Positions 37,184 through 40,698 of a stretch of 64,000 nucleotides of DNA are shown here, in pieces. This DNA comes from Psychrobacter sp. DAB_AL43B. GTDB lineage: Bacteria > Pseudomonadota > Gammaproteobacteria > Pseudomonadales > Moraxellaceae. Numbering within the stretch: position 1 is the stretch's first letter; each line of letters opens with the position of its first letter. The notes beneath the pieces are model-generated. The model was not told where the DNA came from. It did no database searches and saw only the letters and a list, made by a program, of their open reading frames with translations. The stretch lies in the NCBI RefSeq assembly GCF_900168255.1, contig NZ_LT799838.1, forward strand, positions 1-64,000, given 5' to 3'. The position numbers and the translations under genes were made by a program.

Positions 37184-37297
37184 GACGGGCTTCCTTTTTA
37201 TTTTATTGAAGAATTTACAATACTTACTTTAACAAAGCTGAGCGCCGTGCGTGTTAGATAATGTTTATTTAGTTATTCAATAAAAGAAATAGGTTTT

Positions 37298-37378
37298 GGC
37301 TACAAGTTTGTAGCTAAAGTATTTGACTACGGTTTTGTAGTTAAGTATTATGACTATAAATCTATAGTTAAGTAGAGA
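37298..37378 (+). promoter_or_regulatory. Three 27-bp direct repeats, each with an internal inverted repeat
   Basis: Units start at 37298, 37325 and 37352, exactly 27 bp apart. Each has an inverted repeat near its start: CTACAAGTTTGTAG, CTACGGTTTTGTAG and CTATAAATCTATAG. The shared tail is TAGTTAAGTA or close to it. The array runs up to 8 bp before the ATG of the ATPase operon and replaces a normal leader. It looks like an array of operator sites or an RNA hairpin series. ATG TTA AAA TGA at 37378-37389 is a three-codon ORF whose stop overlaps the ATPase start. Confidence 0.7.
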
Positions 37379-37385
37379 TGTTAAA

Positions 37386-38576
37386 ATGAGCACAGGAAAT
37401 ATAGTTTACGGAAATAATTATTTTCCACGCCCGAAAGATGAAAAAAGAATATGGCGAAAAATTGCTCAAGGTGACCATTTGCTACTACTTGCCCCAAGAC
37501 GTGTAGGTAAATCTTCTTTGCTGCATCATTTGAAAGACAACCCTAAACCAGGTTATGCCATTATATACAGCTATGTTCAAGATTGTACGGACGCACAAGA
37601 GTTCTATATGAAACTGCTGAAGTCCATTACACAGTCAGAGTTTGTAACTAATACTGCCAATGTATCTAATAAATTAAATGGCTGGTTCAGTAAACTCTCA
37701 ATTGATTTTTCAATAGAGGCGTTTGGAGTAAAGCTAGCAGCTGATAAAAAGACTAGTGATGAACCTCCTATCATTGATACAGACGTTATTCGTCAAGTAT
37801 TAATGGACAGTTTGAAGGAGACAGATATTATTCTAGTAATCGCTATTGATGAATTCCCTGATGCTCTCATTAATATCCATAAAAAGCATGGCGAAATAGC
37901 AGCTATTAAGTTTTTATCAGGTATCAGAGAGATGTGCCAAGACGTCAACTTTAATAAGAAAGTACGCTTTATATTCACAGGCTCTATCGGACTGGATACA
38001 GTAGCCAAGAAACTCAATCTTAGTAATTTGATTAATGTTTTCGTCCATACAACGATTGAGCCTTTATCAGACATAGAAGCTCAGAAATTTATCGATTTTT
38101 ATTTTAGTAAGTCTTCGGAACGGATAATAACTGACCACTTAAAAGAGATTATCATCAAGCAAGTGGGTTGGAATATGCCTTACTACCTTGCTTTAGTTTG
38201 CGAAGAAATAGTTGATAACTATGATGATAGCCATCTACTGGAAGAGTCGGACATTTTAAAGTGTGTTGAACAGCTGTTTGAGCAAGAGACGAAGACAAAG
38301 TTTTCTCACTGGCGCGAACGTTTAAATCGGCTAGAAAAGCAAGAAAGGTTATTCGCTGAATCAATATTAACGCTTGTTTGTGACCATGATGAATCATTAC
38401 CATACGCCGATATTTTTAACTTAAGCCAACATGCAGACTATAAAGATAACGTTAATGCTAATTACGTATTGACCTGTCTTAAACACGAAGGCTATCTTTT
38501 CAATCAAACAGAAGATAATACTTATAAATTTACTTCACCTCTACTCAAGCGCTGGTGGAATCGTTATGGAAAATAA
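37386..38576 (+). CDS. AAA-type ATPase of the STAND/archaeal-ATPase-like kind (first of pair)
   Basis: A 396-aa P-loop protein. Walker A APRRVGKSSLL is at residues 36-46 and Walker B LVIAIDEFPD at 150-159. The sensor-like FIFTGSIGLD is near 198. The C-terminal third is helical with a winged-helix-like end (YVLTCLKHEGYLFNQ ... YKFTSPLLKRWW). This layout is common in orphan ATP-binding proteins of accessory regions; the precise function is unknown. It overlaps the second ATPase by 11 bp, so the two are surely co-translated. Composition is AT-rich. No nuclease, methylase or transposase lies beside it. Confidence 0.75.
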   Translation: MSTGNIVYGNNYFPRPKDEKRIWRKIAQGDHLLLLAPRRVGKSSLLHHLKDNPKPGYAIIYSYVQDCTDAQEFYMKLLKSITQSEFVTNTANVSNKLNGWFSKLSIDFSIEAFGVKLAADKKTSDEPPIIDTDVIRQVLMDSLKETDIILVIAIDEFPDALINIHKKHGEIAAIKFLSGIREMCQDVNFNKKVRFIFTGSIGLDTVAKKLNLSNLINVFVHTTIEPLSDIEAQKFIDFYFSKSSERIITDHLKEIIIKQVGWNMPYYLALVCEEIVDNYDDSHLLEESDILKCVEQLFEQETKTKFSHWRERLNRLEKQERLFAESILTLVCDHDESLPYADIFNLSQHADYKDNVNANYVLTCLKHEGYLFNQTEDNTYKFTSPLLKRWWNRYGK

Positions 38577-40650
38577 AAAAAACGAGACAACGGATACGAT
38601 GAGTCGTTCAGTCCTTTTATATAATACTCAAAATATAGATGCTCAGTTGCTAAAGGCGGGTTTTAGTATTCGTAAAAAAGAATACCAACGCATCTGGAAG
38701 GATATTCAAACGAGTAAAATGACTCATCCAGAGACTCATTACCTTATTCAAGGCGTAAGAGGAGCAGGTAAAACCACTCTATTATCTCGTCTTTCCTATG
38801 AAATTGCTGAAGATGACAAATTAAGTAAATGGCTGATACCTATCTTATTGAATGAAGAAGAGTACGGTATATTATCGCTATTTACTTTTTGGCTGCGTAT
38901 CGCTGAAAAGCTAGCAGAACATGATGTTCAGCTGTATTCAGAGCTATTTCAACAAGTCTTGAGCTTAGACGATGATGCGGTAGTTGCTTGGGAGCTTATA
39001 CAACATTATTTAAATAAAAATAAGCAAAAAATTATCGTTTTTGTCGATAATTTAGGAGAGTTATTTAAGGATTTTGATGATATTGAGCATGCTCAACTGC
39101 GTGAAGTGTTGAGTCTACATCCGCATATTCGGCTTATTGGTGGTTCAAGCCAATCACTAGAAGCACATTTTGATGTATCAGCTCCGTTCTACCAGTTTTT
39201 CAAATTGATTAATTTAAAGTCAATTAATGAAACGGAAATGCATGAACTGTTGCGCTCTTTAGCACAACAAACTAATGAAGAAGCGATAAAGACTATCGAA
39301 GAAATTATCACTGAACATCCTGAACGTATCGAAGCGGTTAGACGTCTCACTGATGGCGTACCTCGCACTATTGTATTGCTATTTCAAATTATCATGGAAG
39401 GGGCAAAAGAAAGTAGTTACGCTTACTTAGAGGAAACTATTGATAAGACTACACCCTTGTATAAACATCGAATGGACGATTTATCACGTCAACAAAAAGC
39501 GATTGTACATACTATAGCGATGAATTGGGATGCAATGAGTACCAAGGAAATCGCTGAGCAAACTCGCTTGCCAAGTAAGACAGTATCTGCGCAGTTGGTA
39601 AAGCTACAGCAACAATGGGTAGTCGATAAAATTGAGACAGATACTAAGAATCACTTATACATTATCAAAGAACGTTTCTTTAATATCTGGTATCTCATGA
39701 GATATGGAAATCAGACAGATAAGCGTCGTGTTCTGTGGCTTACAAGATTTTTGGAGAGTTGGTGTGACGAAAGAGAGTTATCAACAAGGTTTTTAGAAGC
39801 TGCTTTCAATATTGAAACTAATCAGACTAATGTATCGGATGTATACTTCAGTGCACTTTTAGCTTCAGAAAAAATTGATAGTGAAATTAAAAAGTCAATT
39901 GTAGATGGAATGCAATTTAGAAATAAAGGAAGAATGATAGATTATCAGAATAGTGATTATAAAAATATAGAGATACCTCTAAGAGAGCTAGTGAGTATAA
40001 ATAAAATAGAAGAAGCATACCAGTTAGTAGAAAATAACTTTAAAAACCTAACAATAAAAGACTATTTATTTAATTTACACACATTATACCTAGTAAGACC
40101 AGAAAGCTTTGAACCAGAAGTGTATGGCCTAAAACTGCTTGAAAAAACAAATTTTGCAGCACTTGAATTGTCATACTTACTATTTATTATATTTAATAAT
40201 AATTTTTATGAATATAAGGAGGTGTTTTTTAAAGTATTGTCAGTAGTTATTGAAAATATAGATATCAATCTAAATCAAATCGCTATAGTACACTCTTATA
40301 TCCTTTATGCCTTATGGAATAATGATTTTATATGCTTAAAAAGCTTCATAAATGAGTTAAAAAATACTAAATTCATGGATGAATTTATAAAGTTTGAAGA
40401 TGATGATAAATTTTATATGTTTTTTGAGAATATAATTATAATGCTACTTTCAAAAAGACAAATTGAAATAGCTTTCAGTATTATTGTAGAGTTTAATCTC
40501 AAAGAGGAGTTAAAACCCCTTTACTACGCTACAATTTCTTTGCTTAAAGACGAACGTCAGAAAGAGTACTTACGTATGGGTTCGGAACTAAAAGGTACAG
40601 TCAACGAAATACTGCAAACGGTTGAAGAGTATCGTACTAAATATTCTTAG
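38566..40650 (+). CDS. Large P-loop ATPase with winged helix and helical C-terminus (second of pair)
   Basis: A 694-aa protein. Walker A GVRGAGKTTLL is at 63-73. The Walker B strand IIVFVDNLGELF (156-167) has Asp but no directly following Glu. RLIGGSSQS near 190 is sensor-like and LTDGVPRTIVLL near 260 resembles STAND ATPases. A winged-helix domain (STKEIAEQTRLPSKTVSAQLVKL) lies near 325-350, then IIKERFFNIWYLMRYG near 365. The last ~300 residues are AT-rich, Asn/Ile/Leu/Phe-rich helices, perhaps a sensor or effector-recognition region. GGTGG precedes the ATG inside the first gene. A role in defence or DNA-linked signalling is inference only. Confidence 0.72.
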   Translation: MENKKNETTDTMSRSVLLYNTQNIDAQLLKAGFSIRKKEYQRIWKDIQTSKMTHPETHYLIQGVRGAGKTTLLSRLSYEIAEDDKLSKWLIPILLNEEEYGILSLFTFWLRIAEKLAEHDVQLYSELFQQVLSLDDDAVVAWELIQHYLNKNKQKIIVFVDNLGELFKDFDDIEHAQLREVLSLHPHIRLIGGSSQSLEAHFDVSAPFYQFFKLINLKSINETEMHELLRSLAQQTNEEAIKTIEEIITEHPERIEAVRRLTDGVPRTIVLLFQIIMEGAKESSYAYLEETIDKTTPLYKHRMDDLSRQQKAIVHTIAMNWDAMSTKEIAEQTRLPSKTVSAQLVKLQQQWVVDKIETDTKNHLYIIKERFFNIWYLMRYGNQTDKRRVLWLTRFLESWCDERELSTRFLEAAFNIETNQTNVSDVYFSALLASEKIDSEIKKSIVDGMQFRNKGRMIDYQNSDYKNIEIPLRELVSINKIEEAYQLVENNFKNLTIKDYLFNLHTLYLVRPESFEPEVYGLKLLEKTNFAALELSYLLFIIFNNNFYEYKEVFFKVLSVVIENIDINLNQIAIVHSYILYALWNNDFICLKSFINELKNTKFMDEFIKFEDDDKFYMFFENIIIMLLSKRQIEIAFSIIVEFNLKEELKPLYYATISLLKDERQKEYLRMGSELKGTVNEILQTVEEYRTKYS

Positions 40651-40657
40651 ATAAAAC

Positions 40658-40698
40658 AAAGGTCATAATCTAGTTCCAAAGACTAAATTATGACCTTT
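40658..40698. terminator. Bidirectional terminator after the ATPase pair
   Basis: AAAGGTCATAATCTAGT and ACTAAATTATGACCTTT form a long stem with one mismatch and a 7-nt loop, between convergent genes. The T-tract is short on both sides. Confidence 0.7.

Follow-up and report, generated by a model that had tools for sequence, protein, structure and literature searches.

Several described systems resemble parts of the locus considered here. The bacterial NLR-like STAND NTPases (Avs, bNACHT) and the STAND regulator MalT consist of an NTPase, a winged helix and a superhelical, variable C-terminus, and CBASS has a WYL-domain regulator, named CapW. One account notes that little is understood of how costly immune operons are controlled before infection; in the same account RptR, a small separate regulator, represses a type I restriction-modification (R-M)/DarTG2 island, and its sites are 6-bp (base pair) TAGCTA sequences in 9-bp direct repeats (PMC12255303). 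The present locus, from Psychrobacter sp. DAB_AL43B, is an operon of two genes, A and B, preceded by an array of three inverted repeats. It lies in positions 1 to 64,000 of contig NZ_LT799838.1 (assembly GCF_900168255.1), the 64,000-nucleotide (nt) stretch called the window below. A-B is fairly probably an immune-type, NLR-like module of two NTPases whose operon would be repressed by its own sensor, B, through the array. Autoregulation of the operon by B appears well supported.

The repeat array and the predicted promoter

An earlier note on this DNA had described inverted-repeat units spaced by 27 bp upstream of two overlapping P-loop ATPase genes. Both observations hold: on the plus strand three dyads start exactly 27 bp apart, upstream of the A-B operon and on a predicted promoter, and the two genes, of 396 and 694 amino acids (aa), follow with an overlap of 11 nt. 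Each unit is an imperfect dyad of about 20 bp, slightly longer than noted (unit 1, TGGCTACAAGTTTGTAGCTA; unit 2, TGACTACGGTTTTGTAGTTA; unit 3, TGACTATAAATCTATAGTTA).

37297..37316, plus strand: operator unit 1, upstream of the predicted -35; spacing kept in relatives
37323..37328, plus strand: predicted -35, TTGACT; with the -10 it scores 10/12 at a spacer of 17 nt; same position in relatives
37324..37343, plus strand: operator unit 2; its left arm is most of the -35 and it occupies the -35/-10 spacer
37346..37351, plus strand: predicted -10, TATTAT, ending on the first base of unit 3
37351..37370, plus strand: operator unit 3, beginning on the final base of the -10
37386..38576, plus strand: gene A, 396-aa P-loop NTPase (APRRVGKSS) related to archaeal-type Walker ATPases, with a winged-helix-like C-terminal region (by eye)
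38566..40650, plus strand: gene B, 694-aa protein with NTPase, winged helix and variable C-terminus (TPR in relatives)
39466..39780, plus strand: winged helix of B, residues about 301-405, recognition helix LPSKTVSAQL; predicted reader of the array
39781..40485, plus strand: hypervariable region of B, residues about 406-640; presumed sensor

The combination TTGACT-17-TATTAT at 37323-37351 is one of the two best promoter-like sites (10/12) in the stretch scanned. That stretch has 16 such sites against 15.2 in shuffles, which is no excess, so the promoter call rests on the conserved position in relatives. In 33 listed loci from outside the Bacteroidota the penultimate unit provides the -35 with a mean match of 5.64/6, partly by construction; a -10 ending on the first base of the last unit matches 3.79/6, an offset of +9, inside the unit, 3.82, and the other offsets 2.21 on average. 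In Bacteroidota, the last unit carries the end of a TAnnTTTG box, the promoter box consensus of that phylum, in 10 of 26 loci; all 10 are among the 14 loci whose three units are evenly spaced.

How widely is the array kept? A position matrix, trained on the same loci, was applied to 78 upstream regions of 200 nt, a set that includes near-duplicates (68 array loci with both proteins aligned reduce to 42 at 75% identity). At least two sites were found in 70 regions, and mononucleotide-shuffled regions with at least two numbered 0 in 20 rounds; the gap between units is exactly 27 bp in 93 of 120 cases. On reading the eight matrix misses, the count with an array or a variant rises to 77/78, mostly at 27 bp: L030, whose operon is broken, has a normal array, three units precede a broken A in L083, and five Runella/Emticicia loci carry a variant array of GCAATA..TGC dyads, also spaced by 27 bp. 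The remaining locus, L107, has no array within 200 nt. The dyad form is kept across phyla as the bases change, a feature that had been noticed first within the window itself, and the search for the same pair with a similar array in other genomes found both, the array not being missing upstream of homologous operons.

The earlier note had allowed for either a protein target or an RNA structure. A protein target is favoured by co-occurrence with B and by co-variation with its helix. RNA structure is an unlikely cause of the repeats given that units 1 and 2 fall before or inside the predicted promoter; Rfam gave no match at its gathering thresholds in the window.

Judged by sequence, the A-B pair is an unnamed family that spans many phyla. 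A scan of species genomes for B confirmed 130 stretches, of which 80 were kept as loci, from Bacteroidota, Gammaproteobacteria, Campylobacterota, SAR324 and others, many of them metagenome-assembled genomes. A, whole or partial, adjoins B in 75 of the 80 and was undetected in L055, L076, L087, L093 and L110; two of these, L087 and L110, have the end of a contig at their start and are uninformative on the absence of A or on the array. A sample of the window's class (369 genomes, one from the window's genus) has B in nine at E<=1e-30, with A beside it in 8/8 loci read (window excluded), distant subfamilies included. A two-unit pattern with at most one mismatch matched two of the 369, both with B, and missed seven other genomes with B; by eye, three units spaced by 27 and 28 bp are visible in one of the seven (G465). 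Within the genus B is present in 10/105 genomes, counting the window's own and one broken copy, and it occurs also on Moraxella osloensis plasmids. In the literature, open-licence sources only, nothing was recognised as the A-B pair or as a Psychrobacter defence hotspot.

Other arrangements were seen among the relatives. Distant A-B subfamilies (L242-L247) have other B helices, and by eye L242, L243, L244 and L245 have other dyads near the operon start; in L242 and L243 these are three abutting 16-bp units (by eye), and each distant array type pairs with a different B helix. The SAR324 locus L046 has an expanded array upstream of A-B, five units by matrix within 200 nt and six or seven by eye.

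The two proteins and the likely reader of the array

The absence of a certain known family was borne out by the profile searches that the earlier note had proposed: PADLOC, NCBIfam and Pfam gave no model that names the pair. PADLOC 2.0.0 has no full-length match to A or B, its best being mad8 over about 55 residues around the P-loop, and no Avs model is among the hits of either protein up to E=1. No NCBIfam 20.0 model comes near its cut-off for A or B. In Pfam the window's A reaches AAA_22 and its B ATPase_2, AAA_16, NACHT and MarR_2 among others, all below threshold. The NACHT score of B is 21.2 bits, below the cut-off of 26.7, and a relative (L104) passes with 29.3. Against solved structures, a profile of A matches the archaeal-type Walker ATPases 2fna (E 2.8e-7) and 2qen (0.0012); a single-sequence search with A gave nothing significant, and B found none by single sequence or by profile.

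The window's B has no Pfam match to TPR, and no LuxR-type helix-turn-helix is among its Pfam hits up to E=1. In six relatives scanned, the C-terminal part of B shows TPR strongly in L046, L051, L243 and L019, weakly in L062 and not in L104; L046 and L243 carry AAA_16 and TPR together above cut-off. Alignment with relatives supports one common architecture, and the window's B can be read as a STAND-like NTPase, a winged helix and a TPR-type sensor, the TPR part being extended to the window protein from its relatives. Between B and the convergent gene lies one further feature:

40658..40698, minus strand: terminator-like hairpin of 17 pairs, with a T-run reported on the minus strand only

Which protein reads the array? 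The suggestion that it is the target of the winged helix of the second protein gains support from co-occurrence across phyla, from A-less loci that keep units and from operator/helix co-variation. B is the likely reader, with descent partly controlled, because units precede B where A is lacking, operator changes track the B helix and the array is absent from the one locus whose helix is degenerate. Three testable loci with B and no A by profile keep units upstream of B, two in L055, two in L076 and one in L093; in L076 another gene, CRP-like by eye, lies between units and B. The recognition helix carries S-K in 69 of 70 array loci, and in the 70th, L104, which the script missed, S-K was seen on inspection. 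It is replaced by T-N in the five Runella/Emticicia loci with the variant operator, and is lost in the degenerate helix of L107, the locus without an array. Loci with any CT half-site have T or S directly after S-K in 19/26 cases vs 3/43 for loci without one, a grouping chosen after looking. A second scan of A and B columns for association with the operator base, with Moraxellaceae excluded and scored by adjusted R2, was run at three redundancy levels (703, 675 and 682 columns); the residue before S-K ranks 4, 1 and 1, and the residue after it 10/703, 19/675 and 12/682.

Does the putative operator occur elsewhere in the window's genome? A single-unit pattern with at most two mismatches is rarer there than a reversed control (98+103 vs 204+175), and therefore no further targets are claimed.

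Variability, the shared interval and arrays without B

Pairwise comparison of nine Psychrobacter B proteins (36 pairs) gives a median identity of 85% in the NTPase, 93% in the winged helix, 23% in residues 406-640 and 76% in the tail. All nine of the nine loci fetched from the genus share the window's chromosomal interval. In L028 and L029 three flanking genes are 92-100% identical and the B N-termini 90%, yet A is only 46% and the variable region 30%; in L023 and L024, A and the variable region are both 99% identical and the flanks 83-92%. From these contrasts A-B alleles thus appear to have been swapped in place at one Psychrobacter site. Broken copies also occur: A and B in L030, A in L026, and in L017 an A split by an IS5 element.

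In Psychrobacter genomes without B the same interval is occupied by other genes. Ten cargo proteins were chosen from regions of this hotspot with a two-unit array and compared with PADLOC at E<=0.001; eight of the ten match, namely LmuA (two), a GmrSD-type protein, a type IIG R-M protein, RelA/SpoT (a candidate family), a PtuB-like HNH protein (weak), AriAB and AbiJ, and two have no match. By eye, other hotspot regions look non-defence, such as L143 with its pair of transposases and L152 with a block of metabolic genes. A 1173-aa hotspot protein (L144, 1297-4818) has an LmuA-like N-terminus and a weak mad8-like stretch.

The plasmid copies also lie among defence genes. On the M. osloensis plasmid L015 an Avs4/PD-Lambda-4_A protein overlaps the end of B; on pNP7-2 (L016), the pair is flanked upstream by QatD and a PD-T4-6-type kinase and downstream by proteins of the PRTase_III-A, CARF6 and methylase types. 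Of eight plasmid neighbours scanned, six match defence models, the unmatched ones being L015:1937-3502 and L016:9784-11673. The latter, downstream of A-B and clustered with PRTase_III-A, CARF6 and methylase, is an ORC-CDC6-like protein (PF24389, E 1.1e-136). Distant B-like NTPase-TPR proteins in L019 and L020, on Agrobacterium and Sphingobium plasmids, adjoin adenylate/guanylate cyclase or Pycsar genes. A defence role of A-B is probable in the Moraxellaceae. The idea of an anti-phage module finds backing in Psychrobacter and on the Moraxella plasmids, and finds none in the neighbour test on other phyla described below.

Two-unit arrays occur in the genus beyond the genomes that carry B. The pattern with at most one mismatch is found in 57/105 genomes vs 10 with B, part of these being judged, by eye, chance matches that lack the full dyad form. 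From the 95 B-less genomes 80 regions were read; units 1 and 2 are kept in 30 of them, and 29 of these 30 had been picked for matching the two-unit pattern; the other 50 show partial traces in seven. Six further B-less genomes keep two units beside the same neighbours. After unit 2 there is one junction, beyond which come differing genes, many of defence type, or next to nothing: the 160 nt downstream of unit 2 fall into 13 clusters among the 30 regions, joined within a few nt of the unit end (by eye). Pairwise identity is 0.74-1.00 at arm positions outside the search pattern, 0.76 in the linker, 0.58-0.63 at the dyad centres and 0.34-0.48 past the junction, and the -10 is lost (2.13/6). On the simplest reading these are ghost operators of an ancestral A-B operon at that site; a retained function and a landing-site role are alternative readings.

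Mechanism, rival readings and known systems

The sequences themselves show a conserved array that lies on the predicted promoter and accompanies B, the helix co-variation, the hypervariable region and the hotspot; what we infer from there on is that B binds the array and represses the operon instead of activating it, what triggers it, what A does and that the output is antiviral. B would resemble an NLR, joining a STAND-type NTPase to a MarR-like winged helix and a variable sensor of TPR type. In the resting cell B, probably as a dimer, would occupy the three evenly spaced dyads through its winged helix; bound B would cover the -35/-10/start region and keep the operon low. Once the trigger, presumably a phage product, reaches the sensor, an NTP-driven rearrangement of B, perhaps with A, may both turn on the response and free the promoter.

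Several results weigh against this autorepressed immune module. The winged helix of many STAND proteins is regulatory rather than DNA-binding. In a first unselected column scan, with Moraxellaceae included and scored by F statistic, the residue after S-K ranks 55/703, and columns of A rank high in both scans. The record of L107, the locus without an array, is labelled UNVERIFIED_CONTAM. The first two units persist in 36 B-less Psychrobacter genomes in all (L141-L160, L209, L212-L226). No effector domain (nuclease, membrane or other) was recognised in the window's A or B or in the relatives scanned. B has no match in phage records at E 1e-5 (A was not searched there), and no relative of either protein was confirmed when viral contigs were scanned by pattern with A and B; on the same results a phage origin of the pair was rejected. 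Finally, among the proteins closest to A-B in other phyla, PADLOC matches are in no clear excess: 49 families were matched vs 62 in the control, from 124 proteins each; the highest tallies, A-B vs control, are mad3 with 5 vs 3 and mad2 with 4 vs 2. This test counts families only; it took 134 nearest proteins, two per locus, less 10 from near-duplicate loci, and its control was 124 proteins from 17 gammaproteobacterial stretches, unmatched for phylum.

Could the same operator logic serve without immunity? A-B as a MalT-like stress or nutrient regulator, autoregulated and sensing an internal ligand with the variable TPR region, is somewhat improbable: the NTPase-winged helix-TPR layout, a weak TPR_MalT match in one B relative, the lack of an effector domain and the neighbour test suit it, but it sits poorly with the patchy presence in the genus, the hypervariable region with allele swapping at one site, the defence hotspot and the defence genes beside plasmid copies. 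B may instead activate the operon from unit 1, which sits upstream of the -35 in a possible activator position, but this is unlikely, as units 2 and 3 lie over the spacer and start region in repressor geometry with both predicted kinds of promoter. Quite unlikely is a reader other than B, either A, whose end is also winged-helix-like, or a separate host regulator, with co-variation of the B helix a by-product of descent. Arrays that persist without B, and the several A columns that associate with the operator base, speak for it; against it are the three testable loci where units precede B without A, and the C-terminal helix of A, which is poorly conserved, unlike that of B. Nor would one expect Bacteroidota, Gammaproteobacteria and Campylobacterota to share a single host factor that changes in step with B. 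That the array serves as a landmark for recombination or insertion in the Psychrobacter hotspot, and is no operator, seems very improbable. The unrelated sequence clusters joined within a few nt of unit 2, and the loss of the -10 while the dyad arms are conserved, fit such a landmark, but outside Psychrobacter the array precedes A-B at unrelated sites in unrelated phyla, and no regularly accompanying recombinase was noticed.

The autorepressed module may also be extended to a bolder picture, possible though doubtful: a phylum-spanning NLR-like family in which one molecule is both infection sensor and operator-binding repressor, and in which NTP-driven activation would tie the firing of immunity to derepression of the molecule's own promoter. 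The operator would then, in Psychrobacter, outlive the system as a fixed slot, with unrelated defence genes (Lamassu LmuA, a PARIS fusion, AbiJ, type IIG R-M, GmrSD, RelA/SpoT) plugged in at one junction. Of interest here is that sensor, NTPase switch and repressor appear united in one protein. The array, recognisable by eye across phyla and co-varying with the recognition helix, can be used to find further members, and binding specificity, de-repression on infection and sensor diversification are all addressable in one small operon.

How does the locus compare with the systems named at the outset? B appears to have the STAND-type layout of Avs, bNACHT and MalT, with weak NACHT, nSTAND and AAA_16 matches, but the window's B stays below Pfam cut-offs, a second NTPase, A, accompanies it, and its winged helix appears to read the operon's own operator. 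MalT has a LuxR domain and Avs an effector domain, and neither was found in B. The archaeal-type Walker ATPases 2fna and 2qen are matched by the A profile; to our knowledge neither has a B partner or an operator. With RptR the likeness lies in three repeated palindromic sites over a defence-operon promoter, conserved with the regulator, and the difference in that the presumed regulator of A-B is the 694-aa NTPase B itself and its sites are dyads of about 20 bp every 27 bp (PMC12255303). The WYL-domain transcription factor of CBASS is likewise a dedicated regulator of an immune operon, but it belongs to another protein family, with a WYL domain and no NTPase (PMC9122588).

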